From positions 186,001 through 250,000 of the forward strand of contig NZ_JAMHGA010000038.1 in NCBI RefSeq assembly GCF_023660105.1: a DNA stretch of 64,000 nucleotides, given 5' to 3'. The notes below the pieces were generated by a model that worked only from the letters and a program-made list of their open reading frames with translations, did no database searches and was not told where the DNA came from. Shown in pieces: positions 22,115-37,485 of the stretch. Every line of letters starts with the position of its first letter. Within the stretch, counting starts at the first letter, position 1. Position numbers and translations under genes: made by a program. This stretch comes from Desulfovibrio aminophilus (GTDB taxonomy: Bacteria; Desulfobacterota; Desulfovibrionia; Desulfovibrionales; Desulfovibrionaceae).

Positions 22115-22841
<727 letters not shown>

Positions 22842-22848
22842 AAACGAA

Positions 22849-22877
22849 AAGCGGCGGGGCATCGCGCCCCGCCGCTT
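22849..22877. terminator. Terminator between the transporter operon and fdhE
   Basis: AAGCGGCGGGGC-ATCGC-GCCCCGCCGCTT is a 12-bp stem. It has an A-rich left flank (T-run for the minus strand) and CCCTTC on the right. It serves both convergent transcription units. Confidence 0.8.
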
Positions 22878-22902
22878 CCCTTCAATCCTCTTCCAGGCCC
22901 GT

Positions 22903-23808
22903 TCAGAGCACCGCATTCCAGGCATGCCCCGCCAGGGGCGCATAGCCCTGCTCGCGGGCCAGCACCTCCAGTGGCAGCATGGCCAGGGCGGCCATGTCCG
23001 GCTCCGGGACGTCCACCAGCTCCCCCGTGTCCAGGCACAGGCAATAGGTCTTGCAGCTCCGGCAGACGTCCACCCGCTCGAAGGGCCGGTCGGCCACGTG
23101 CAGGTGGAAGAGCTGCTCCGGCTCCTCGGTGCCGCAGGCCGGACAGAAGACCCGCTTGCAGCGCCACTGGGTGGAGCAGGTGCCGCAGCGCATCCAACGC
23201 TGGCCGCCGTGGGCCTGGATGAAATCCGACTCATCGCGCACGCGCACGAGCTGGGAGTAGTTCGGCGCGCCGCCGCAGACCGGGCATGAGCCGCGCAGCC
23301 AGGACAGCCCCTTGATCCGCTCGGCAAGGTCCCTGGCCTGACGCTCCACGAACGGTTTGGCGATCTGGGCGGCGGCGAAGCCCAACACATCCTCCGAAAC
23401 GCCCGCCGGGGGCCGGACCTTGGCCTCGAATGCCAGGGCGAACAACGCGTCCGCCGGCATTGAGCCGTCGGCCAGACTCCGGCGCAATGCCGTCAATTCT
23501 CCCGCCAGGGCGGGAAAAGCTTGCTCCATGACCGGCAGGAGCTTCGAGGCGGCCTCGCCCAGCGCGGGGCCGGGATTCTGGAATCCCGAATCAGCCAGAA
23601 GCCAGACACCCTGACCAAACCGCGCGAGGTCCGGTTCCGGCGTCGCGCCGCGCCATCCCGGAGCCTGTTCCCGTATCTCGGCCTGGGCGGCCAGCACCGG
23701 ACCGAAGGCCGAAAACAGGGTCTCCAGGGCCGGGGCCTGGCCCGCGAACCGCCGCGCATCGTTCAGGATGCGCCGTCCTTCCTCGGTCATCCGCTCAGCG
23801 CCGTGCAT
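22903..23808 (-). CDS. fdhE: Formate dehydrogenase accessory protein FdhE
   Basis: A 301-residue cytoplasmic maturation factor. Four CXXC-type knuckles lie in the C-terminal half (CPVCGG, CGTC, CPACGTEE, CRSCKTYC), the rubredoxin-like iron/zinc sites of FdhE. FdhE proteins bind the formate dehydrogenase catalytic subunit before Tat export. AGGAGA lies 6 bases before ATG 23808. It is third in the operon fdhA1-fdhB1-fdhE and likely serves both formate dehydrogenases of the window, since the second unit lacks its own. Confidence 0.93.
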   Translation of the reverse strand: MHGAERMTEEGRRILNDARRFAGQAPALETLFSAFGPVLAAQAEIREQAPGWRGATPEPDLARFGQGVWLLADSGFQNPGPALGEAASKLLPVMEQAFPALAGELTALRRSLADGSMPADALFALAFEAKVRPPAGVSEDVLGFAAAQIAKPFVERQARDLAERIKGLSWLRGSCPVCGGAPNYSQLVRVRDESDFIQAHGGQRWMRCGTCSTQWRCKRVFCPACGTEEPEQLFHLHVADRPFERVDVCRSCKTYCLCLDTGELVDVPEPDMAALAMLPLEVLAREQGYAPLAGHAWNAVL

Positions 23809-23901: not shown

Positions 23902-24627
23902 TCAACCTTGAATGTTTCCCACCATGCGCTTGAGCGGCGCGAACACACCCGCCAGGAGCTGCCCCCTGGTCAGGAGCCGCGGGGCCTGGGCCACGGCGAA
24001 CTTATGGTACATCGCCGGGTCCTCGGCCACCAGGTAAATCACCGCCACATCCTTCGGGTTCAACAGCTGGGCCTTGGGCGACTCCTTCTTGATCACCGCC
24101 AGCCGAGCCTCGGCCTTCTTCAGGATCTCATCCCGCTCACCGAAGCTCATGGCCCCCATGGCGCAGGTCTTCACGCACATGGGCAGCAGATTGGCCTTCA
24201 CCCGGTCGATGCACATGTCGCACTTGACGATCTGCTTGGTTTGCGGATTCTGCCGCGGGATGTCGTAGGGACAGGCCCCGCGGATGACGTCGAAGTCCTC
24301 CTGGGCGGTCTTCTCCGTGTAGATCACGGCCCCGGTGGCCGCATCCTGGAGAATGGCGCCCTCCACGCCGGAGGCCTGCTTGCAGGGGGCCTCCAGGCAA
24401 TGGCGGCACTGGTCCGGGAAGAAGTTCCAGAAGACCTTGCCGCTCTTGTCCATGTGCTCACTGAAGCGCACGAGTTTCAAGTTGTAGGGAGTCAGGTCCG
24501 GGGGATTCTGGTGTGTGCCCGTCTGCTTGGTGGGCACGGCCGGCATCCCCTTCCACTCCTTGCAGGCCACCTGGCAACCCCGGCAGGCCGTGCAGCGCGT
24601 GGTGTCGACGAGAAACGCCTTGGGCAT
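23902..24627 (-). CDS. fdhB: Formate dehydrogenase iron-sulfur subunit (unit 1)
   Basis: A 241-residue electron-transfer subunit with four ferredoxin-type [4Fe-4S] cysteine clusters: CTACRGCQVAC at residues 12-22, CRHCLEAPC near 74, CDMCIDR near 136, and CVKTC near 151. It carries electrons from the FdhA site to periplasmic cytochromes c. There is no signal peptide, so it is exported bound to the Tat substrate FdhA. No C-terminal membrane anchor is present, which indicates a soluble FdhAB of the Desulfovibrio type. It is highly similar to the copy at 27977-28702. Confidence 0.95.
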   Translation of the reverse strand: MPKAFLVDTTRCTACRGCQVACKEWKGMPAVPTKQTGTHQNPPDLTPYNLKLVRFSEHMDKSGKVFWNFFPDQCRHCLEAPCKQASGVEGAILQDAATGAVIYTEKTAQEDFDVIRGACPYDIPRQNPQTKQIVKCDMCIDRVKANLLPMCVKTCAMGAMSFGERDEILKKAEARLAVIKKESPKAQLLNPKDVAVIYLVAEDPAMYHKFAVAQAPRLLTRGQLLAGVFAPLKRMVGNIQG

Positions 24628-24684: not shown

Positions 24685-27600
24685 CTACAGTTCGGTCACC
24701 TTGTCGGCCTTGCGGATGTTCACCAGGCTGGCCTTGTATTCCGGGATGGTGGTGTTGGGGTCGCCCACCGCCGCCGTCAGCCGGTTCACCGCATCACCGC
24801 ATTTGGGTGTGGTCCAACCGAAACAGAAGGGCATGCCTATCTCATGCACGGTTTTGCCCTGAACGCGCAAGGGGCGCATGCGGACCGTGACCATGGCCAC
24901 GGCCTGCACCTGACCCCGGGCGCTCTCGACAATGACCACGTCGCCGTTCTTGATGCCCTTCTCCTTGGCCAGCTGCGGGCTCATCTCCACGTACTGCTGG
25001 GGCTCGGCCTCCAGCAGGGGCGGAGTGTTGCGGGTCTCGCCGCCGCCGCACCAGTGCTCGGTCATGGAGTAGGTGGTGAGCACGATGGGGAAGCGCGGAT
25101 CGGCCGGAGCCGCCAGCACGTCCTTGTCGCTGCTCACCGACTTGTAGCAGGGGCTGTTGAGCTGCTTGGAGAAGCCGTGGGCCTTCACCGGCGTCTCGGC
25201 GGGCTCGTAGTGTTCGGGGAGCGGTCCGTCCTCGCGGCCGGGACCGTAGAGCTGGGCATGCCCCTCGGTGTGCATGATGAAGGGGTACTTGCCCTTGCCC
25301 GAGGACATCGGCGGCCAGCCGCCGTCGGGCACGTCGCCCACCCACTTGCCGTCCTCCCAGGCGATGACCGCCTTGGCGGGGTTGTAGGGCTTGCCGTCCT
25401 TGTCCACCGAGGCCCGGTTGTACAGGATGCGCCGGTTGACCGGCCAGGCCCAGGAGAACTTGGGGTAGAGGTTGATGGCCGCCTGCATGGGCGTCTGGGA
25501 GAGATCCCGACGCTTGGCGAGGTTGCCCTCGGCCTCGGTGTAGCCGCCGCAGTAGAGCCAGTTCAGGCTGCTGGTGGAGCCGTCGGCCTGGAGATTGGGG
25601 AAGCCCGGCACGAGCTGGCCCTTCTTGTACTCCTTGTCGCCGATCTTCACGTCCTTGGTGAAGAAGCCGTTGATCCTCTTGGCCACGGTCTCGGGATCGT
25701 AGGTCGCGGGCCAGTCCATCTTGAGCACGGGCTCGGTGAAGGTTCCGCCCTCGGCCTGGTAGAGCTTGCGCACCGCGTTCATGATCTCCACCACCATGCC
25801 GCCCATGGGCTTGCACTGGCCGATGGGTTCCGCGGCCTTGTAGTGCCACATGTGCCAGCGGCCGGAGTTGGAGACGGTGCCGTCCTTTTCGCCGCGCTGC
25901 GCCGAAGGCAGGAGGAAGACCTCCGTCTTCACCTTCGCGGGATCGGTCCCCGGCTGATGCCAGAAGTCGCTCGTCTCGGTGTGGTGCAGTTCGCCCACCA
26001 CCAGCCAATCGAGGTTCTCCATGGCCCTGCGCACCTTGTGGGTGTTCGGGGCGCTCTGGGCCGGGTTGGTGCCGAAGATGAAGCCGCCCTTGATGGCGCC
26101 CTTGTACATGCGGTCGAAGAGGAAGATGTACGAGTAGTCCTCTCCGGGCTCGGTCTTGGGCAGCCAGTCATAGCCGAAGCCGTTCTGCTCCGTGCCGTTG
26201 TCGCCGAACCAGGCCTTGAGCAGGCTGACCACGTACTTGGGCCGGTTCTGCCACCAGTTGGCGCTCAGCGGGTCCTTGGACACCGGGGTGTTGGCCTTCT
26301 GGTACTCCTCCAGCGTGGGCCATCCGGCGTGCGGCATGGGCAGATAGCCGGGCAGGATGTGGTAGAGGATGCAGTGGTCCGTGGAGCCCTGCACGTTGGG
26401 TTCGCCGCGCAGGGCGTTGATGCCGCCGCCCGCCACGCCGATGTTGCCGAGCAGGAGCTGGATGATCGCCGACAGGCGGATGTTCTGCACGCCCACGGTG
26501 TGCTGGGTCCAGCCCAGGGCGTACATGACGGTCCCGGCCTTGTCCGGCTTGCCGGTGGCCGCGAAGGCCTTGTAGACCTTGAGCAGATCGTCCTTGGAGA
26601 CGCCCGTGATGTCGGAAACCTTGTTCAGGTCATAGCGGGAGTAGTGCGCCTTGAGCAACTGGAACACGCAACGAGGATGCTTGAACGACGGGTCCCGCTT
26701 GGGTACGCCGTTCTCGTCCTTCTCGAAGGCCCACTGGCTCTTGTCGTACTTCCGCTTGGCCGGGTCGTAGCCCGCGAACAGGCCATCCTTGAACGAGTAT
26801 TTCTCGCCGACGATGAAGGCCGAGTTGGTGTATTCGGCCACGTACTCCTTGAAATACAAGTTGTTGTCCAGGATGTATTTGACCATGCCGCCCATGAAGG
26901 CGATGTCCGTTCCCGAGCGCAACGGCACATGGAACGTGCTCCGGGCCGAAGTCCTGGAGAACTTGGGATCCACATGGATGACCGGCGCGCCCTTGTCCTT
27001 GGCGCGCAGCACCCACTTGAAGGAAATGGGGTGATGCTCCGCAGCGTTGGAGCCCATGATCAGCACCGCGTCGGCATTGCCGATGTCGGTGTAGTGATTC
27101 GTCATCGCACCGCGTCCGAACGACTCTCCCAGAGCCGCTACAGTGGCGCTGTGTCAGATACGGGCCTGATGGTCCATGTGGACCACGCCCAGGCCGCGAA
27201 GCATCTGGTGCGAGAGTGCGCACTCCTCGTTGTCCATCTGGGAGGTTCCCAGCTGGAACATGGATTCAAGGCGGTTCACCCGGCGTCCCTGGGAGTCCGT
27301 GGCGATGAAGTCGCGGTCACGGGTCGTCTTGACATGGCGGGCGATGCGGTCCAGCGTCCAGGCCCAGTCCTTCTCCTCCCATTTGTCTCCGCCGGGAGCG
27401 CGGTACAGGGGCTTTGTCAGCCGGTGGTCGTTGACGTGCATGGACAGCAGGGCCGCGCCCTTGGCGCACAGGCCGCCCTCGCTCACCGGGTAGTCCGGGT
27501 CGCCTTCCACGCTGATGATCTTGCCGTCCTTGACGCTGAAGATGGTGTTGCAGCAACAGGAGCAGAACGGACAGATGGAGATGACCTCCTTCGCCCCCTC

Positions 27601-27720
27601 GATCTTCAGCCCGGCCGCGTAGGCGCGGACCGGCCCGAGATCGAGCCCGAAGCGGCCCAGGGTCAGGCCCGCCAGGCCCGCCCCCGCGGCCTTCATGAAC
27701 GTTCGCCGTGTAATGGCCAT
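24685..27720 (-). CDS. fdhA: Formate dehydrogenase catalytic subunit, selenocysteine type (unit 1)
   Basis: A 1011-residue molybdo/tungsto-pterin enzyme oxidising formate to CO2. The Tat signal TRRTFMKAAGAG is at the N-terminus. A [4Fe-4S] cluster is held by Cys50, Cys53, Cys57 and Cys85 (CX2CX3CX27C). An in-frame TGA at 27156-27154 codes residue 189, in the context QARI-U-HSATVAALGESFGRGAMTNHY, exactly where formate dehydrogenases have Sec or Cys. The frame continues uninterrupted to 24685 on both sides, so this is recoding, not a broken gene. ATG 27720 is chosen since AAGGAG lies 7 bases upstream; the GTG before it is too close. It heads fdhA1-fdhB1-fdhE. Confidence 0.94.
27130..27156 (-). 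promoter_or_regulatory. Sec UGA codon with candidate bacterial SECIS hairpin
   Basis: Directly 3' of the UGA the mRNA can fold CAGCGCC against GGCUCUG (27151-27145 with 27136-27130; one internal mismatch) around the 8-base loop ACUGUAGC. The loop contains GU 13-14 bases after the UGA, the type of loop SelB recognises. The cysteine paralogue does not conserve this stem. Confidence 0.6.
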
Positions 27721-27842
27721 GCGCACTCTCCTTGAACGTGTCTGCCCGGCCCGGGAGCCGCAAGGGACCGGAGTGATCGAAAAACGCGGCTCCTTTTCCG
27801 CCCCGATCCTGGCATGTCACGCGGCGGCGGGTCAACGCGAAT

Positions 27843-27900
27843 GGTCAAAAAATACAGTAAGTTATTAATATTATCTTAAACATATAGTCGTTTTGGCACC
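27843..27900 (-). promoter_or_regulatory. Conserved 58-base upstream element of fdhA1
   Basis: Aligns without gaps to 31884-31941 upstream of fdhA2. On the minus strand the shared blocks are GGTGCCA, ATATGTTT-A, TAATATT and TTTTTTG-CC at equal spacing. It lies about 120 bases before the fdhA1 ATG. The surrounding sequence is not conserved, which points to a promoter/operator shared by the two formate dehydrogenase units. Confidence 0.6.
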
Positions 27901-27913
27901 AGCCGCGGCATCC

Positions 27914-27952
27914 CGAAAAACAGCGGGGCCGCTCCCAAGGAAGCGGCCCCGC
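27914..27952 (-). terminator. Terminator of the fdhA2-fdhB2 unit
   Basis: On the minus strand GCGGGGCCGCT and AGCGGCCCCGC form an 11-bp stem followed by TGTTTTT. It begins 25 bases after the fdhB2 stop and separates the two formate dehydrogenase operons. Confidence 0.88.
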
Positions 27953-27976
27953 CCGATCACGTCGAGCGCGGCGCGC

Positions 27977-28702
27977 TCAACCGCGCAAGGCCCGGGCCAC
28001 GCGCCGCAACGGCGACGCCAGCCCGGCCAGCATCTGCTGGCGGGTCAGGAGCCCTGGCGCTTCGGCCACGGCGAATTCATGGTACTTCTTGGGCTCGTCC
28101 GCCACCAGGTAGATGACCGAGACGTCGTCCGGGTTGCAGAGTTGGGCCTTGGGGAACTTCTTCTTGACCGCGGCCAGGCGGTCTCCGGCCATCTTGAGCA
28201 TGGTCGCGCGCTCGCCGAAGTTCATGGCCCCCATGGCGCAGGACTTCACGCACATGGGCAGCAGGTTGGCCTGGACGCGGTCGATGCACATGTCGCACTT
28301 GACGATGCGCCTGGTGGCCGGATCCAGCCTCGGGATGTCGTAGGGACAGGCCCCGTGGATCACCTCGAAGTCTTCCTGGGCCGTCTTCTCCGTGAAGATC
28401 ACCGCTCCGGTGGCGGGATTCTGAATGATGGCCCCCTCCACGCCGGAGGCCTGCTTGCAGGGAGCCTCCAGGCAATGGCGGCACTGGTCCGGGAAGAAGT
28501 ACCAGGAAACCACTCCGTTCTTGTCCATATGCTCGCTGAAGCGCACGAGCTTGAAGTTGTTCGGATTGAGGTCCGGCGGATTCTGATGCGTGCCCGTCTG
28601 CTTCGTGGGCACGGCGGGCAGCCCCTTCCACTCCTTGCAGGCCACCTGGCAACCTCGGCAGGCCGTGCATTTCGTCGTATCGATGAAGAACGCCTTGGGC
28701 AT
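27977..28702 (-). CDS. fdhB: Formate dehydrogenase iron-sulfur subunit (unit 2)
   Basis: A 241-residue paralogue of the unit 1 FdhB with the same length and the same four [4Fe-4S] motifs (CTACRGCQVAC, CRHCLEAPC, CDMCIDR, CVKSC). Differences are concentrated in the C-terminal 60 residues. The ATG at 28702 follows AAAGGAG and lies 18 bases after the fdhA2 stop. It receives electrons from FdhA2. The near identity suggests a tandem duplication of an fdhAB block followed by divergence of the catalytic subunit. Confidence 0.95.
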   Translation of the reverse strand: MPKAFFIDTTKCTACRGCQVACKEWKGLPAVPTKQTGTHQNPPDLNPNNFKLVRFSEHMDKNGVVSWYFFPDQCRHCLEAPCKQASGVEGAIIQNPATGAVIFTEKTAQEDFEVIHGACPYDIPRLDPATRRIVKCDMCIDRVQANLLPMCVKSCAMGAMNFGERATMLKMAGDRLAAVKKKFPKAQLCNPDDVSVIYLVADEPKKYHEFAVAEAPGLLTRQQMLAGLASPLRRVARALRG

Positions 28703-28720
28703 GGTCGTCGCTCCTTTGAG

Positions 28721-31700
28721 CTACAGCTCGGTCGCCTTGTCGGCCTTGCGCAGATTCACAAGGCAGGCCTTGTATTCCGGGATCGTGGTGTTGGGGTCGC
28801 CGATGGAGACCGTAACCCTGTTGGTGGAGTCGCCGCACTTCGGCTTGCTCCAGCCGAAGCAGTACGGCATGCCCACTTGGTGCACGGTCCGGCCCGCGAC
28901 CGTGAACGGCTTCATGCGCACCGTGACCATGGCCACGGCCTCGGTCCGGCCGCGCAGGCTCTCCACGATGACCACGTCGCCGTTCTTGACGCCTTTCTCC
29001 TTGGCCAGCTGCGGGCTCATCTCCACGTACTGCTGGGGCTCGGCCTCCAGCAGCGGCGGGGCGTTGCGCGTTTCCGAACCGGAACACCAATGCTCGGTGA
29101 GGCTGTACGTGGTGAGCACGATGGGGAAACGCGGGTCGCCGTTCTTGGCCAGCACGTCCACATCGCTCTGGATGACCTTCATGCAGGGGTTGTGCATCTG
29201 CTTGGAGAACGGGTTCACGGCGAGCGGCGTCTCGGCGGGCTCGTAATGCTCCGGGAAGGGGCCGTCCTCCCGGCCCGGGCCGAACAGCTGGGAATGCCCC
29301 TCGGTGGTCATGATGAAGGGATACTTGCCGCCCTCCATCGCCATGGGCGGATAGCCGCCGTCCGGCACGTCGCCCACCCACTTGCCGTCCTGCCAGACGA
29401 TGACGGCCTTGTCCGGGTTGAAGGGCTTGCCGTTCGTGTCCACCGAGGCGCGGTTGTAGAGCACACGGCGGTTCATGGGCCAGGCCCAGGCGAAGCCCGG
29501 ATACAGACCGATCTTGGCCTGCATGGGCGTCTGGGCCAGATCCCGACGCTTGGAGAGGTTGCCCTCGGCCTCGGTATAACCGCCGCAGTAGAGCCAGTTC
29601 AGGCTGCTGGTGGAGCCGTCGGCCTGGAGATTGGGAAAGCCCGGCACGAGCTGGCCCTTCTTGTACTCCTTGTCGCCGATCTTCACGTCCTTGGTGAAGA
29701 AGCCGTTGATCCTCTTGGCCACGGCCTCGGCATCGAACTTCTCGGGGCAGTCGGCCTTCAGGATGGGTTCGGGGAAGGCGCCGCCTTCCTTCTTGTACAG
29801 GGCGCGAACCCGGTTCATGATCTCCACGAAGATGGCGCCCATGTCGCGGCTCTGGCCCAGGGGCTCCACGGCCTTGTAGTGCCACATGTGCCAGCGGCCG
29901 GAGTTGGAGATGGTGCCCTCCTTCTCGGCGCGATAGGCCGAGGGCAGGAGGAAGACCTCGGTCTTGACGGTCTTGGGGTCCACCCCGGGCCGCCGCCAGT
30001 TGTCCGTGGTCTCGTTGTGGAAGACCTCGCCCAGGACAACCCAGTCCAGGTTGTCCCAGGCCTTGCGGACCTTGTTGGTGTTCGGGACGCTCTGGCAGGG
30101 ATTGTGGGCGAAGCACAGGCCGCCCTTGATCCCGCCCTTGTACATGCGGTCGAAGATGTAGAGGTGGGAGTAGTCCACGCCCGGGTCCATCTTGGGCACA
30201 TAGGAATAGCAGAACTCATTCTCCGGCGTGGCGTTGTCGCCATACCAGGACTTGAGCAGGCTGACCACGTACTTGGGCCGGTTGCCCCACCAGTTCACGC
30301 TCATGGGATCCTTGCTCACGGGCGTGTAGGCCTTGAGATACTCGGCCAGGGTCGGATAGACGGCCGTGGGCGTGGAATGGTAGCCGGGCAGGTAGCCGTA
30401 GAGCAGGGCGTGGTCCGTGGTGCCCTGCACGTTGGGCTCGCCCCGCAGGGCGTTGATGCCGCCGCCCGCCACGCCGATGTTGCCGAGCAGCTGCTGCACC
30501 AGGCCCGAGAGCCTGATGTTCTGGACGCCCACGCTGTGCTGGGTCCAGCCCAGGGCGTAGATCACGGTTCCGGCCTTGTCCGGCCCGCCGGTGGCCGTGT
30601 AGGCCTCGTAGACCCGCAGAAGGTCCTTCTTGCTTACGCCCGTCACCGAGGACACGCGGTCCAGGTCATAGCGGCCGTAGTGGGCCTTCATGAGGTTCAT
30701 GACGCATCGCGGGTGCTTGAAGGCGGGATCGCGCTTGACCTTGCCCTCGGCGTCCTTCTCAAAGGCCCAGGCCTTCTTGTCGTACTTCTTCTTGTCGGGA
30801 TCAAAGCCCGAGAACATGCCGTCCTTGAAGGAATAGCGTTCGCCCACGATGAAGGATGCGTTGGTGTATTCCTCGACGTACTGCTTGAAATACTTCTTCT
30901 TCTCCAGGATGTACTTGATCATGCCGCCCAGGAAGGCGATGTCCGTGCCCGCGCGGATCGGCACATGGAAGTCGCTGCGGGCCGAGGTGCGCGAGAACTT
31001 CGGGTCCACGTGCATGACCACCGCGCCCCTGGCCTGGGCCTTGAGCACCCACTTGAAGGTCATGGGATGGTGCTCGGCGCAGTTGCTGCCCATGATCAGG
31101 ACCGCGTCGGCGTTCTGGATGTCGTTGTAGTGGTTGGTCATGGCGCCGCGACCGAAGCACTCGGCCAGGGCGGGCACCGAGGGACTGTGGCAGATGCGGG
31201 CCTGGTGGTCGAAATGCACGATGCCGAAGGCGCGCACCATCTGGTGCAGCACGGCGGCCTCCTCGTTGGTGACCTGCGAGGAACCGAGGTGGAACACGCT
31301 CTCCACCCGGTTGACCACCTGCCCGGCGTCGTTTTTCAGCTTGAAGTCCTTGTCGCGCTGGTCCTTGATGCGCTTGGCGATGCGCTCCATCATCCAATCC
31401 CAGTCCTTCTCCTCCCACTTGTCGCCGCCGGGAGCGCGGTACAGCGGCTTGGTCAACCGCTCGGGGCTCACGTGCAGCGACTTGAGGGACGCGCCCTTGG
31501 CGCACAGTCCGCCCCCGCTCACCGGGAAATCGGGGTCGCCCTCGATGTTGACGATCTTGCCGTCCTTGACGTGCACCAGCGTGTTGCAGCCGCAGGAACA
31601 GAACGGGCAGATGGAGATGACCTCCTTGGCGCCCTCGATCTTCAGCCCGGCCGCATAGGCCTGGACCGGCGCGAGATTGAAGCCCAACCTGCCCAGGGCC

Positions 31701-31756
31701 AGCCCGGCCAGCCCGGCCCCGGTCGCCTTCATGAACGTTCGCCGTGTGATTCCCAT
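28721..31756 (-). CDS. fdhA: Formate dehydrogenase catalytic subunit, cysteine type (unit 2)
   Basis: A 1011-residue paralogue of the Sec enzyme, equal in length. The Tat signal TRRTFMKATGAG and Cys50/53/57/85 cluster are conserved. Residue 189 is Cys (TGC at 31192-31190) in QARICHSPSVPALAECFG, aligned exactly with Sec189 of unit 1. Cys-type enzymes are selenium-independent and often slower; that is family knowledge. ATG 31756 is used, since AAGGAGG lies 8 bases upstream; the ATG two codons earlier is only 2 bases from it. It is followed by fdhB2, with no second fdhE. Confidence 0.95.
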   Translation of the reverse strand: MGITRRTFMKATGAGLAGLALGRLGFNLAPVQAYAAGLKIEGAKEVISICPFCSCGCNTLVHVKDGKIVNIEGDPDFPVSGGGLCAKGASLKSLHVSPERLTKPLYRAPGGDKWEEKDWDWMMERIAKRIKDQRDKDFKLKNDAGQVVNRVESVFHLGSSQVTNEEAAVLHQMVRAFGIVHFDHQARICHSPSVPALAECFGRGAMTNHYNDIQNADAVLIMGSNCAEHHPMTFKWVLKAQARGAVVMHVDPKFSRTSARSDFHVPIRAGTDIAFLGGMIKYILEKKKYFKQYVEEYTNASFIVGERYSFKDGMFSGFDPDKKKYDKKAWAFEKDAEGKVKRDPAFKHPRCVMNLMKAHYGRYDLDRVSSVTGVSKKDLLRVYEAYTATGGPDKAGTVIYALGWTQHSVGVQNIRLSGLVQQLLGNIGVAGGGINALRGEPNVQGTTDHALLYGYLPGYHSTPTAVYPTLAEYLKAYTPVSKDPMSVNWWGNRPKYVVSLLKSWYGDNATPENEFCYSYVPKMDPGVDYSHLYIFDRMYKGGIKGGLCFAHNPCQSVPNTNKVRKAWDNLDWVVLGEVFHNETTDNWRRPGVDPKTVKTEVFLLPSAYRAEKEGTISNSGRWHMWHYKAVEPLGQSRDMGAIFVEIMNRVRALYKKEGGAFPEPILKADCPEKFDAEAVAKRINGFFTKDVKIGDKEYKKGQLVPGFPNLQADGSTSSLNWLYCGGYTEAEGNLSKRRDLAQTPMQAKIGLYPGFAWAWPMNRRVLYNRASVDTNGKPFNPDKAVIVWQDGKWVGDVPDGGYPPMAMEGGKYPFIMTTEGHSQLFGPGREDGPFPEHYEPAETPLAVNPFSKQMHNPCMKVIQSDVDVLAKNGDPRFPIVLTTYSLTEHWCSGSETRNAPPLLEAEPQQYVEMSPQLAKEKGVKNGDVVIVESLRGRTEAVAMVTVRMKPFTVAGRTVHQVGMPYCFGWSKPKCGDSTNRVTVSIGDPNTTIPEYKACLVNLRKADKATEL

Positions 31757-31833: not shown

Positions 31834-31866
31834 CTATGTATTTGTCATTACTTTCACAATACATAG
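31834..31866. promoter_or_regulatory. CTATGTATT-N15-AATACATAG inverted repeat upstream of fdhA2
   Basis: A perfect 9-bp inverted repeat with 15-base spacer, 78-110 bases upstream of the fdhA2 ATG and between that gene and the 58-base conserved element. Nothing like it is present at fdhA1, so it may set the differential control of the cysteine isoform. It could also fold as an mRNA hairpin. Confidence 0.5.
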
Positions 31867-31883
31867 ACATCGTCAATAAATGG

Positions 31884-31941
31884 GGACAAAAAAGGCAATG
31901 ATTTTAAAATATTACTTCAAACATATTAGAACTCTGGCACC
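31884..31941 (-). promoter_or_regulatory. Conserved 58-base upstream element of fdhA2
   Basis: Counterpart of 27843-27900, same length and block spacing, about 127 bases before the fdhA2 ATG. It contains AATAT-N9-ATATT. GGTGCCA at its outer end is not part of a sigma-54 promoter because no TTGC follows at the right distance. Confidence 0.6.
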
Positions 31942-31977: not shown

Positions 31978-32454
31978 TCAGTCTCGGGGAGCGCCGTTTC
32001 CGTCTTCCTGAAAAGACCGCGGCTGAAACGGAAAAACCTCGGCCGCGGCGGCCAGGGCGGCGGATTCCACGCGCTCGAACCAGCGCCGGAACTGCTCGGC
32101 CATGGCCCGGCCTTGCGAGGTGAGCACGATGCCCTGGCGGCGGCTGCCCCGGGACTCCACGAGCTTGAATCCCAGAATGCGCTCGCTCTGCTGGATCTTG
32201 CCCCAGGCGGCCCGGTAGGACATGCCCAGGCTCTCGGCGGCCTTCTTCAGGGAACCGAGCCGCTCGACCTCGAAAAGGAGTTGGGCCCGCCCCGCTCCGA
32301 AGCACATGTCGCCGTTCCGCTCGAGCCAAAGGTGCAGCCGTACCGTGGGCCGGGAGCCGGAACGCTCCGCCTCGGTCCGGACGGCCCGCTCGTTCCGCCT
32401 GGCCTTCTCGTTTCCGCCGAGGCCTTCCGGGCTCCGGCACACGACCTTTTCCAT
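31978..32454 (-). CDS. ModE-like winged-helix regulator without molybdate domain
   Basis: A 158-residue protein whose centre (LHLWLERNGDMCFGAGRAQLLFEV, then GSLKKAAESLGMSYRAAWGKIQ) matches the LysR-like N-terminal DNA-binding domain of ModE. A charged, Arg/Glu-rich N-terminus of about 40 residues precedes it. No TOBE/Mop molybdate-binding repeats follow, so the effector is unclear; related single-domain proteins exist in Desulfovibrio. ATG 32454 has GGAGG 7 bases upstream. It lies directly upstream of, and in the same direction as, fdhA2, so control of the molybdopterin-dependent formate dehydrogenases is likely but inferred. Confidence 0.85.
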   Translation of the reverse strand: MEKVVCRSPEGLGGNEKARRNERAVRTEAERSGSRPTVRLHLWLERNGDMCFGAGRAQLLFEVERLGSLKKAAESLGMSYRAAWGKIQQSERILGFKLVESRGSRRQGIVLTSQGRAMAEQFRRWFERVESAALAAAAEVFPFQPRSFQEDGNGAPRD

Positions 32455-33844: not shown

Positions 33845-34105
33845 ATGAGCACGCACTTCTGCTTGAGACAGGCCCAGGTGAACCAGCGGCTGCGCATCCG
33901 CACCATCACGGCCAAGGGTGAACTGGGACGGCGCATCCGCGACATGGGGCTCATCCCCAACACCGAAATCCGGGTCATCGGCAAGGCTCCCCTGCACGAC
34001 CCGGTGGCCCTGCGCCTGCTGGATTTCACCCTGACCCTGCGCAACAGCGAGGCCGACCACATCACCGTCGAGCCCCTGTGCGAGGAGGAGACCGTTCATG
34101 AATAA
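33845..34105 (+). CDS. feoA: Ferrous iron transport protein FeoA
   Basis: An 86-residue SH3-like protein (LRIRTITAKGELGRRIRDMG, then IPNTEIRVIGKAPLHDPV) that assists FeoB in the cytoplasm. GAGGAG precedes ATG 33845; longer open sequence upstream belongs to another frame of the Cys-rich gene. It overlaps feoB by 8 bases. Confidence 0.93.
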   Translation: MSTHFCLRQAQVNQRLRIRTITAKGELGRRIRDMGLIPNTEIRVIGKAPLHDPVALRLLDFTLTLRNSEADHITVEPLCEEETVHE

Positions 34106-36356
34106 CGAGGCCCGCGTGCTCCAGATGCCCGCCCAGGACGAGGGACACCCCGCCCGCGCCGGGAAGACCGACATGGTCATCGCCCTGGCCGGCAACCCCA
34201 ATTGCGGCAAGACCACCATGTTCAACGCCCTCACCGGCGCGCGGCAGCACGTGGGCAACTGGCCCGGCGTGACCGTGGAGAAGAAGACCGGCGTGACCCG
34301 CCTGGACGACGCGGCCATGACCGTGGTCGACCTGCCCGGAACCTACTCCCTCACGGCCTACAGCGAAGAGGAGCTGGTGGCCCGCGATTTCCTGGTGAAC
34401 GAGCGTCCCGAGGTGGTGGTGGACGTGCTCAACGCCGGGGCCCTGGAGCGCAACCTCTATCTCGCCGTGCAGTTCCTGGAGCTGGGCGTGCCCGTGGTCC
34501 TGGCCCTGAACATGATGGACGAGGTGCGCAAGGAGGGCAAGGAGATCGACGTGGCCCTCCTGGAGAAACTCACCGGCTGCCCGGCCGTGGAGACCGTGGC
34601 CCGCGCGGGCCAGGGCACGCGCGCGCTGATGGAGGCGGCCCGGAAACTTTCCACGGCCCACAAGGGGCAGGCCTGGCAGCCCCTGCGCATCACCTACGGC
34701 TCGGACCTGGACCCGGTGCTCGGCGAGATGGAATGCCTCGTGGAGCGCAAGGGCCTGCTCACGGACAAGCTCCCGGCCCGCTGGGTGGCGCTCAAGTACC
34801 TGGAGGGCGACACCCGGCTCATGGAGATGGGCCGCGCCGCCGATCCGGCGCTCTCCGAGCGGCTGGAGGGCATGGCGGCCAAGGTGGCCGACCACCTCCA
34901 GAAGACCCTCGACGCCACGCCCGACGCCATCATCGCGGACTACCGCTACGGCTGGATCGCGGCCATCGTGCGCCAGGCCGTGCGGCGGCCCGGGGTGGAC
35001 GCCCAGCGCCTGTCCATCTCGGACCAGATGGACCGCGTGCTGACCCACCGCCTGGCCGGGCCGGTGATCATGATCGGCATCGTCTACCTCATCTACACCA
35101 TCACCTTCACCCTGGGCGAGGTGCCCATGGGCTGGGTGGAGAGCTTCTTCGGCTGGCTGGGCGACACGGCCACCGCCGTCCTGCCCGAGGGCCTGCTGCG
35201 CTCGATGATCGTCTCCGGCGTCATCGACGGCGTGGGCGGGGTCATGGGCTTCGTGCCGCTCATTCTGATCATGTTCCTGCTCATCTCGGCCCTGGAGGAC
35301 TCCGGCTACATCGCGCGCATGGCCTACATGCTCGACCGCGTCTTCCGCATCTTCGGCCTGCACGGCACCTCGGTGCTGCCCTTCATCGTCTCCGGCGGCA
35401 TCGCCGGCGGCTGCGCCGTGCCCGGCGTCATGGCCACGCGCACCCTGCGCAGCCCCAAGGAGAAGCTGGCCACCCTGCTCGTCTCCCCGTTCATGACCTG
35501 CGGCGCGAAGATCCCGGTCTTCCTCATGCTGGCCGCGGCCTTCTTCCCCGGGGCCGAGGCCGACGTCATGTTCGCCATCACCCTGGCGGCCTGGGCCTCG
35601 GCCCTGCTCGTGGCCCGGCTCCTGCGCTCGACCATCATCAAGGGCGAGGCCACGCCCTTCGTCATGGAACTGCCGCCCTACCGCATCCCCACGCTGCGCG
35701 GCGTGCTCATCCACACCTTCGAGCGCACCTATGAATACATCCGCAAGGCGGGCACGGTGATCCTGGCCATCTCCATCCTGCTCTGGGCAGGCATGACCTT
35801 CCCCTCGCTGCCCGAGGAGACCGCGACGGCCTTCCAGGAGCGCCAGGCCGCCCTGGAACAGAAAGTGGAGGAGGCCAAGGCCGCGGGCGCGGGCGAGGAA
35901 CAGATCGCGGCCCTGGAGGCGCAGGTTTCGACCGCAGCCGCCGACGAGGCCGAGGCCGCCCTGGAGAACACCCTGGCCGGACGTCTGGGCCACGCCCTGG
36001 AGCCCTTCTCCCGGCTGGCGGGCTTCAACTGGCGCGTGAACATCTCCCTGGTGGGCGGCTTCGCGGCCAAGGAGGTCATCGTCTCCACCCTGGGCACGGC
36101 CTACTCCCTGGGCGAGGTGGACGCCGAGGAACCGGCCTCGCTCTCCGAGCGCCTGGCCGGCGACCCGGACTTCTCCAAGGCCTCGGCCATCGCCTTGATG
36201 GCCTTCACCCTGCTCTACGCCCCCTGCTTCGTGACCGTGGTGGCCATGGCCCGGGAGTCGAGCTGGAAGTGGGCCGGATTCAGCATGATCTTCAACACCC
36301 TGCTGGCCTTCGTCGTGGCCGTGGGACTCTATCAGGCCTCCCGGCTCGTGCTCTGA
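34098..36356 (+). CDS. feoB: Ferrous iron transporter FeoB
   Basis: A 752-residue Fe(II) transporter. The N-terminal G domain has G1 GNPNCGKT, DLPGTYSL (G3) and NMMD (G4), followed by a helical GDI-like domain. The membrane part contains two Gate domains with conserved FIVSGGIAGGCAVPG and the C-terminal FAAKEVIVSTLGTAYSLGE. A Glu/Ala-rich coiled segment (about residues 575-620) sits in a loop. It takes up Fe2+ at the inner membrane for the many Fe-S and heme enzymes. It is coupled to feoA and under the Fur box at 33605. Confidence 0.97.
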   Translation: MNNEARVLQMPAQDEGHPARAGKTDMVIALAGNPNCGKTTMFNALTGARQHVGNWPGVTVEKKTGVTRLDDAAMTVVDLPGTYSLTAYSEEELVARDFLVNERPEVVVDVLNAGALERNLYLAVQFLELGVPVVLALNMMDEVRKEGKEIDVALLEKLTGCPAVETVARAGQGTRALMEAARKLSTAHKGQAWQPLRITYGSDLDPVLGEMECLVERKGLLTDKLPARWVALKYLEGDTRLMEMGRAADPALSERLEGMAAKVADHLQKTLDATPDAIIADYRYGWIAAIVRQAVRRPGVDAQRLSISDQMDRVLTHRLAGPVIMIGIVYLIYTITFTLGEVPMGWVESFFGWLGDTATAVLPEGLLRSMIVSGVIDGVGGVMGFVPLILIMFLLISALEDSGYIARMAYMLDRVFRIFGLHGTSVLPFIVSGGIAGGCAVPGVMATRTLRSPKEKLATLLVSPFMTCGAKIPVFLMLAAAFFPGAEADVMFAITLAAWASALLVARLLRSTIIKGEATPFVMELPPYRIPTLRGVLIHTFERTYEYIRKAGTVILAISILLWAGMTFPSLPEETATAFQERQAALEQKVEEAKAAGAGEEQIAALEAQVSTAAADEAEAALENTLAGRLGHALEPFSRLAGFNWRVNISLVGGFAAKEVIVSTLGTAYSLGEVDAEEPASLSERLAGDPDFSKASAIALMAFTLLYAPCFVTVVAMARESSWKWAGFSMIFNTLLAFVVAVGLYQASRLVL

Positions 36357-36357
36357 T

Positions 36358-36423
36358 CCGCCCCCGCCCCTTCGGCCGGGACCGGCGACGCCGCCCCCGC
36401 CCCTTCGGCCGGGACCGGCGACG
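36358..36423 (+). repeat. Two tandem 33-base repeats that duplicate a terminator arm
   Basis: Copies at 36358-36390 and 36391-36423 are identical and start two bases after the feoB stop. Each contains GGCCGGGACCGG, the left arm of the feoB terminator. Only the second copy is next to the right arm. Confidence 0.9.
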
Positions 36424-36442
36424 CCGGTCCCGGCCTTTTTTT
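36407..36442 (+). terminator. feoB terminator
   Basis: GGCCGGGACCGG-CGACG-CCGGTCCCGGCC forms a 12-bp perfect stem followed by seven T. The left arm in the upstream repeat copy could pair instead. Confidence 0.93.
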
Positions 36443-36513
36443 CCGCCCCCGCCCAGCTTCCCTTTCCCCGCGAAAATCCCTATGGTGCCCGCTACCTGGA
36501 GGTTCCACCGACC

Positions 36514-37485
36514 ATGAGCCGCGCCGCAGCCTTCGCGACGGCCCTGCGCGACGTCCTGCGCAACGGCGTCCGCCTGAGCCTCGACCTGTTCAAGATCATG
36601 ATCCCGATCATCGTGACCGTGAAGATCCTCAAGGAGCTGGGGCTCATCACCTACCTGGCCTGGCCCCTGAAGCCGGTCATGGCCCTGGTGGGCCTGCCCG
36701 CCGAGATGGGCCTGGTCTGGGCCACGGCCATGTTCAACAACATCTATTCCGGGATCATCGTGCTCGCCTCCCTGGCGGCCGACGTTCCCCTGACCCAGGC
36801 CCAGGTCACGATCCTGGCCTGCATCATGCTCGTGGCCCACAACCTGCCCATCGAGCTGACCATCGCGCGCAAGTCCGGCCCCCGCCTGCCCTTCCAGTTC
36901 CTCTCCCGGGTCCTGGGGGCCCTGGTCTTCGGCATGCTCCTGCGCCTCGCCTACACGGCCACGGGCGCGCTCCAGGAACCGGCGACGATCCTCTTCCAGG
37001 CCGCCGCCGGGCCGGAGCCCCTCTGGCGCTGGGCCCTGGGAGAGGTCCGCAACCTGCTCTCCATCTTCTGCGTCATCACCACCCTCATCGGCATCATGCG
37101 CCTGCTCCAGGCCCTCCGGCTGCTGGACCTCTGCAACGCCCTGCTGCGGCCCGTGCTGCGGATCATGGGCATCGGCCCGCGGGCCGCGACCATCACCATC
37201 ATCGGACTGGTCATGGGCCTGGCCTACGGCGGCGGGCTCATCATCCACGAATCCCGCGAGGGACAGGTGGACGGCCGGGACGTCTTCGCCTCCCTGACCC
37301 TCATGGGGCTGTGCCACAGCATCATCGAGGACACCCTGCTCATGCTGCTCATCGGCGCGCACCTGTCGGGCATCCTCTGGGGCCGCCTGCTCTTCTCCCT
37401 GGTGGCCACGGCCCTGGTGGTGCGCGTGGCCGCGAGGCTCCCCGCCGCCGCGCGAAACCGCTACCTGTGGGCCGAGGCCCGCTGA
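36514..37485 (+). CDS. Nucleoside-recognition (Gate) domain membrane protein, FeoB-like
   Basis: A 323-residue membrane protein with about eight hydrophobic helices. Two Gate-type repeats are visible: the first around VWATAMFNNIYSGIIVLAS, the second around GLAYGGGLIIHESREG and SLTLMGLCHSIIEDTLLM. It shares the fold of the FeoB and SpmA/B membrane domains but has no G domain. It follows feoB in the same direction after a terminator. Transport of a metal, nucleoside or other solute cannot be decided. GGAGG lies 9 bases before the ATG. Confidence 0.8.
   Translation: MSRAAAFATALRDVLRNGVRLSLDLFKIMIPIIVTVKILKELGLITYLAWPLKPVMALVGLPAEMGLVWATAMFNNIYSGIIVLASLAADVPLTQAQVTILACIMLVAHNLPIELTIARKSGPRLPFQFLSRVLGALVFGMLLRLAYTATGALQEPATILFQAAAGPEPLWRWALGEVRNLLSIFCVITTLIGIMRLLQALRLLDLCNALLRPVLRIMGIGPRAATITIIGLVMGLAYGGGLIIHESREGQVDGRDVFASLTLMGLCHSIIEDTLLMLLIGAHLSGILWGRLLFSLVATALVVRVAARLPAAARNRYLWAEAR

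Follow-up and report, generated by a model that had tools for sequence, protein, structure and literature searches.

Adjacent selenocysteine and cysteine isoforms of a predicted periplasmic formate dehydrogenase in Desulfovibrio aminophilus

Selenium-switched pairs of cysteine (Cys) and selenocysteine (Sec) formate dehydrogenases (FDH) are established elsewhere (PMC6288185), and a side-by-side Sec/Cys backup pair is of a kind already known. In Acetobacterium woodii, the fdhF1 (Cys) and fdhF2 (Sec) products of the hydrogen-dependent CO2 reductase (HDCR) cluster are 80% identical and their selenium-dependent use is assumed (PMC6288185). In Treponema primitia, selenite controls the fdhFcys and fdhFsec transcripts, with changes of as much as 40-fold (Matson et al. 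2010, via PMC6288185), and Methanococcus maripaludis uses Cys isoforms upon selenium depletion (PMC11097638). No paper on a Sec/Cys tandem of the present type in Desulfovibrionaceae turned up in the literature searched, subscription papers being mostly outside its reach.

We analyzed a 64,000-nt stretch of the D. aminophilus genome (contig NZ_JAMHGA010000038.1, positions 186,001 to 250,000; hereafter the window). Re-reading its open reading frames bore out the two head-to-tail fdhAB blocks described in an earlier note, and placed both on the minus strand. Each unit has its own terminator; the Cys unit is upstream and transcribed first, the Sec unit downstream. In order of transcription, the genes and their terminal hairpin are:

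31978..32454, minus strand: regulator gene of the ModE N-terminal (winged helix-turn-helix, HTH) type, 158 aa, without a molybdate-binding domain
28721..31756, minus strand: fdhA, Cys isoform (Cys189), 1011 aa, twin-arginine signal, no internal stop
31190..31192, minus strand: TGC codon 189 of the Cys fdhA
27977..28702, minus strand: fdhB (4Fe-4S subunit, 241 aa) of the Cys unit
24685..27720, minus strand: fdhA, Sec isoform (UGA189), 1011 aa, twin-arginine signal, single in-frame TGA, chimeric
27154..27156, minus strand: UGA codon 189 (Sec) of the Sec fdhA
23902..24627, minus strand: fdhB of the Sec unit, 241 aa, beyond the span covered by the earlier note
22903..23808, minus strand: fdhE-like accessory gene (TIGR01562 41.7 bits, Pfam FdhE_central 21.3 bits, both under cut-off)
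22835..22880, minus strand: stretch with a strong terminator-like hairpin after fdhE (z -4.8)

The inter-unit terminator, between the Cys fdhB and the Sec fdhA, is listed below with the control elements. The same note gave both FdhA as 1011 residues long, with UGA or TGC at position 189, and the sequence agrees. Past the HTH gene lie feoB and a Gate-domain gene (34098-37485, plus strand); an Rfam scan of the window returned a tRNA-Leu only.

The two FdhA align without gaps, with 73.5% amino acid and 78% nucleotide identity. Both genes are intact. Both proteins carry the Sec/Cys-His active-site pair (U/C189-H190) and the conserved Arg, R438, which aligns with Arg441 of the Desulfovibrio vulgaris FdhA chain. 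Both belong to the metal-dependent formate dehydrogenase alpha subunit family TIGR01553 (1350 and 1338 bits, cut-off 814). The Cys FdhA matches the solved D. vulgaris FdhAB alpha chains (PDB 9qm0, 6sdr and others) over its full length, residue 189 of the window proteins aligning with D. vulgaris residue 192. The enzymes are most likely periplasmic, because both FdhA start with a twin-arginine motif. The predicted products of the locus are two forms of one enzyme, a soluble FdhAB formate dehydrogenase of the periplasm, with Sec or Cys as the Mo/W ligand.

The TGA of the downstream fdhA is not a chance stop, since the reading frame runs on for 822 conserved codons past it and a SECIS-like core follows:

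27122..27136, minus strand: core of a bacterial SECIS-like hairpin, GGCTCTGGGAGAGTC

Of 39 Sec relatives, 37 have this core in the form GGCTCTGG[CG]AGAGTC, and none of 22 Cys relatives does. Its distance downstream of the UGA's first base is 20 nt in all 37, and the two Sec relatives without it are both from Bacillota. In the window, it is found in the Sec fdhA and is absent from the Cys fdhA. The hairpin sequence supports Sec decoding at UGA189. Folding energy over the 45 nt from codon 189 did not distinguish Sec from Cys genes (p 0.57); the specific hairpin sequence did, and was used as the marker instead. The genome also holds selA, selB, selD and selC (79.5 bits, above cut-off), the four genes whose presence the earlier note had left to be confirmed, so that an objection from missing Sec machinery falls away. 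The downstream fdhA accordingly combines the features of a bacterial selenoprotein gene (in-frame UGA, downstream SECIS-like hairpin and a genome with selA to selD), and the window holds homologous Sec and Cys isoforms within one Sec-decoding genome. One TGA lies in frame within the selD match (contig C7), which makes the selenophosphate synthetase a probable selenoprotein too. A third FdhA gene of this genome, on a different contig, is likewise a TGA gene.

The following elements could govern expression of the two units:

31908..31925, minus strand: candidate operator of the Cys unit, TATGTTTGAAGTAATATT, the first of two exact genomic matches
31836..31864: palindrome of the Cys promoter, ATGTATT-N15-AATACAT, with a TTGACG hexamer upstream of it, single genome match
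27922..27953, minus strand: intrinsic terminator separating the Cys from the Sec unit (stem of 14 bp, GTTTTT; z -3.8)
27867..27884, minus strand: candidate operator of the Sec unit, TATGTTTAAGATAATATT, the second exact match

A degenerate pattern covering both operators has exactly two exact matches in the 3.54-Mb genome, both in the window, and each unit has one dedicated candidate site. Because the sites lie before both units and are unique in the genome, shared control of the units is suggested. One further match appears at two mismatches (contig C29); a reversed control pattern has two matches. A search around this third site of the operator pattern found neither fdh nor HTH homologues. 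Beyond this genome, many FdhAB units have a common upstream motif near an ATTG...TTGAC stretch. Four starts of a motif sampler gave best scores of 19.9, 11.6, 11.9 and 17.9 bits vs. 9.1-9.2 in shuffles, with 20 bits or more in 18/22 Cys and 21/38 Sec upstream regions; the sampler's site in the window Sec unit is about 10 nt off the palindrome. The Sec and Cys operators of the same genome resemble each other (12 pairs, p 0.011), but this signal is carried by the congeners G028 and G060, without which p rises to 0.12. The G060 units lie on different contigs (L102 for Cys, L103 for Sec) and have an almost identical operator, TAGTATGTTYGAAATAACG, with a frameshift in the Sec gene as assembled.

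With a spacer of 4 to 20 nt, the palindrome ATGTATT-N-AATACAT has one match in the whole genome, at the window Cys promoter, and its arms are the same in G028, where the loop differs. Among upstream regions, 8 of 22 from Cys units have it vs. none of 38 from Sec units, the rate in shuffles being 0.0008 per region. Six other Cys regions have the arms, four exact and two with one mismatch, at the place of the shared motif and 6 nt apart, vs. 15 nt in the window. We consider this palindrome the best candidate for isoform-specific control. A second motif, ATGCCA-N-TGGCAT, lying near -88 in some Sec units, was set aside: allowing two mismatches, it occurs in 11/38 Sec and 6/22 Cys regions vs. 9% of shuffles, and it is absent from the window units. 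A promoter and terminator consensus scan was at chance overall (2 vs. 1.2 and 6 vs. 6.8, respectively), the 14-bp stem alone standing out.

The HTH gene upstream of the Cys unit scores above the cut-off for Pfam HTH_1 and under that for TIGR00637 (48 bits, cut-off 98.5), and a domain profile search found no second domain in the protein. Since it consists of the DNA-binding domain only, without the C-terminal molybdate-binding domains, it does not qualify as a full ModE. Genes of this type lie within 4 kb of 27/36 Sec and 16/22 Cys units and accompany Sec-only and Cys-only units alike; it should be noted that the Sec units of the window and of G028 count as misses because their HTH gene is on the far side of the Cys unit. 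A tree was built from 46 HTH proteins (15 Cys-adjacent, 17 Sec-adjacent and 14 other, labelled manually from their neighbourhoods). Its Cys-adjacent proteins fall mainly into two groups: the first has nine Cys rows (100/98), and the second, containing the window's gene, has five Cys rows and one Sec row (98/94). The tree requires 4 label changes vs. a shuffled mean of 12.7, a pattern that may be mere co-inheritance with fdhA. Two more ModE-HTH-only paralogues, on contigs C12 (L130) and C32 (L131), could also act here; the latter lies near frames that, judged by eye, resemble an ECF-type transporter. No published name for ModE-DNA-binding-domain-only regulators at FDH units turned up in the literature searched.

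The earlier note had proposed selenium-dependent use of the two isoforms, a reading that these data partly support. The same operator variant at both units and an HTH gene beside either isoform speak against a simple selenium switch, while the Cys-only palindrome and the strong terminator between the units speak for isoform-specific control. In other words, the shared operator argues for a common layer of control, and the palindrome for a separate one. We therefore favor, with a probability of about one half, a model of dual units under shared ModE-type control, in which the Cys isoform would be a palindrome-controlled backup for selenium limitation and the two copies exchange tracts. Each unit would be transcribed separately, from a promoter of its own. 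The upstream ModE-type HTH protein would most likely bind the same operator before both, in response to a presumed signal, and so set overall FDH expression; the palindrome would be the likely isoform-specific control site, and the Cys unit would most likely keep FDH activity going when selenium or Sec decoding is limiting. This backup use is proposed from the known systems and from the observation, statistically modest (see below), that Cys is never the sole copy among the readable genomes of the sampled family. The copies would meanwhile keep swapping short tracts by gene conversion.

A different possibility, which on balance we doubt, is that the ModE-type regulator keeps both units expressed together at all times, and that what sets the isoenzymes apart is kinetics, oxygen tolerance or partner, not their use under selenium limitation. 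This would be consistent with one operator class, unique in the genome, before both units and with the same regulator type adjoining Sec-only units, and the 26% amino acid divergence leaves scope for specialisation. Speaking against it are the palindrome found only at the Cys promoter, the terminator between the units and a known pair elsewhere that is selenium-switched (PMC6288185).

It is unlikely that the units are a molybdenum and a tungsten form sorted by the ModE-like regulator, the Sec/Cys difference being incidental. FDH regulation in Desulfovibrio depends on metal, and the neighbouring HTH is similar to the DNA-binding domain of ModE; but the gene is without a molybdate-binding domain, and both units carry the same operator.

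How the Cys copies are distributed bears on the backup role assigned to the Cys unit in the favored model. The host family was sampled with 149 genomes, of which 113 gave a match to this kind of FdhA at E 1e-100. Of these 113, at least 24 have a Cys copy, with at least 26 copies in which Cys was read (16 + 2 + 8), these being lower bounds from the matches listed; all 24 genomes with a detected Cys copy carry a TGA copy too. Of 31 single-copy genomes, 27 are readable, the other four (G014, G018, G022 and G034) having partial genes in which the residue cannot be read, and all 27 have TGA and none Cys. Cys is thus found in at least 24/82 multi-copy vs. 0/27 single-copy genomes (Fisher p 0.0008). 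Once copy number is counted, its absence from the 27 single copies is only mildly unusual (2.8 expected, 0 observed, p 0.046), and the backup reading is therefore not statistically strong.

Tandem Sec/Cys pairs are found in G000, G028, G095, G147, G021 and a spirochaete MAG (L040). The G021 array (L124, L125), whose FdhA type is more distant (about 53% identity), comprises one Sec and two Cys fdhAB units within about 20 kb. Across the phylum, 198 genomes were sampled and 91 gave a match at E 1e-250, with TGA in nearly all rows; the five TGA-less rows checked are all Cys, one from the host family (G029:C3) and four from other families (G294, G246, G219 and G263). In G294 (L141) the Cys copy is the sole copy at E 1e-250 and Gln replaces the His after the Cys; this relative may not be a formate dehydrogenase. 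That Cys copies have appeared repeatedly, and in the sampled family always beside a Sec copy, suggests a solution reached more than once, not a chance event.

We built an FdhA tree of 61 sequences (39 Sec, 22 Cys) with the Sec column masked, by a quick search with branch support from SH-aLRT only; L112 is on a long branch. Left out were duplicate genes or unneeded copies (L027, L031, L035-L039, L041, L052-L080), partial (L042, L050), over-long (L046, L047) or frameshifted (L049, L103) frames, and matches below 40% identity or 600 aa. The tree has at least five Sec/Cys changes, and Cys arose at least five times among these relatives. A 2006 study counted 7 Sec to Cys events in FdhA (PMC1794560); according to a 2026 review, changes of this sort are rare and mainly affect FdhA and SelD (PMC13188914). 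The window Cys fdhA falls in a Cys clade of 15 rows (SH-aLRT 99), sister to a Sec clade of 10 rows. The window Sec fdhA lies outside this sister clade and groups with the Sec genes of G029, G133 and UBA6814. The earlier note had raised the question of whether the Cys gene derives from the Sec one: in-situ duplication of the adjacent gene is rejected (log-likelihood 444 lower, AU test p ~6e-63), but a Sec to Cys change is likely for the Cys clade as a whole. The window Cys unit is an old isoform, inherited separately from the neighbouring Sec body. In the spirochaete MAG (L040, 1635-8835), by comparison, the two FdhA of the Cys/Sec tandem form a sister pair, apparently a local duplication with a Sec to Cys change.

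The congener G028 has the same tandem layout, but its Sec gene falls in the 10-row sister clade. Identity to G028 is mostly 95-99% across the fdhB of the Cys unit, the intergenic DNA and the promoter of the Sec unit (95-100% when the first 40 Sec codons are included), vs. 71-93% for the fdhA bodies. The first 40 codons of the window Sec fdhA are identical to the G028 Sec copy; identity then falls to 66-89% per 40 codons, and most of the rest is closer to the G029 type. Given the shared first 40 codons and near-identical flanks, the Sec fdhA body looks to have been replaced in place. The two window copies also share a near-identical tract:

29580..29724, minus strand: conversion tract in the Cys fdhA
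25544..25688, minus strand: matching gene-conversion tract in the Sec fdhA, 145 nt, one mismatch to the Cys copy

Its 145 nt exceed the maximum of 81 in 5000 codon shuffles, pointing to gene conversion. Although the mosaic against G028 and the conversion tracts could suggest a transient state, with units joined and reshuffled by recombination and one being lost, this is very unlikely given purifying selection on both fdhA (dN/dS ~0.18-0.26, Nei-Gojobori, vs. relatives), the tandem layout kept in G028 and the unrelated tandems of G095, G147, G021 and the spirochaete.

Extending the favored model of shared ModE-type control with a Cys backup, we tentatively conjecture, with more doubt than confidence, that a Desulfovibrio-type family of ModE-DNA-binding-domain-only proteins controls FDH and that the Cys-lineage palindrome ATGTATT-N-AATACAT activates the Cys enzyme without selenium. 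If true, one small regulator family would couple FDH level with selenium status. The named operators and regulator make the selenium-switch idea directly testable. The role of selenium in FDH catalysis has been described as elusive (2023 review, PMC10779653); Sec and Cys CO2/formate enzymes in one cell, with the same small-subunit type and 74% identity, offer a natural comparison for it.

Of the known systems, the A. woodii pair resembles the window in having Cys and Sec catalytic subunits in one cluster (PMC6288185), but these are FDH-H-type subunits of the HDCR, whereas the window encodes periplasmic FdhAB, and the regulator context differs. T. primitia likewise has Sec and Cys paralogues in one genome; its copies, however, are separated by 14 genes and are of the HDCR type, and the window pair is known from sequence alone. 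In M. maripaludis, Sec and Cys isoforms also occur together, in an archaeon. HrsM is the regulator of these isoform sets, and differs from the HTH gene at the window. The FdhAB of D. vulgaris Hildenborough (PDB 9qm0, 6sdr and others) is the same enzyme type as that of the window; the solved enzyme is described as selenocysteine-containing, whereas the Cys copy of the window has Cys189.
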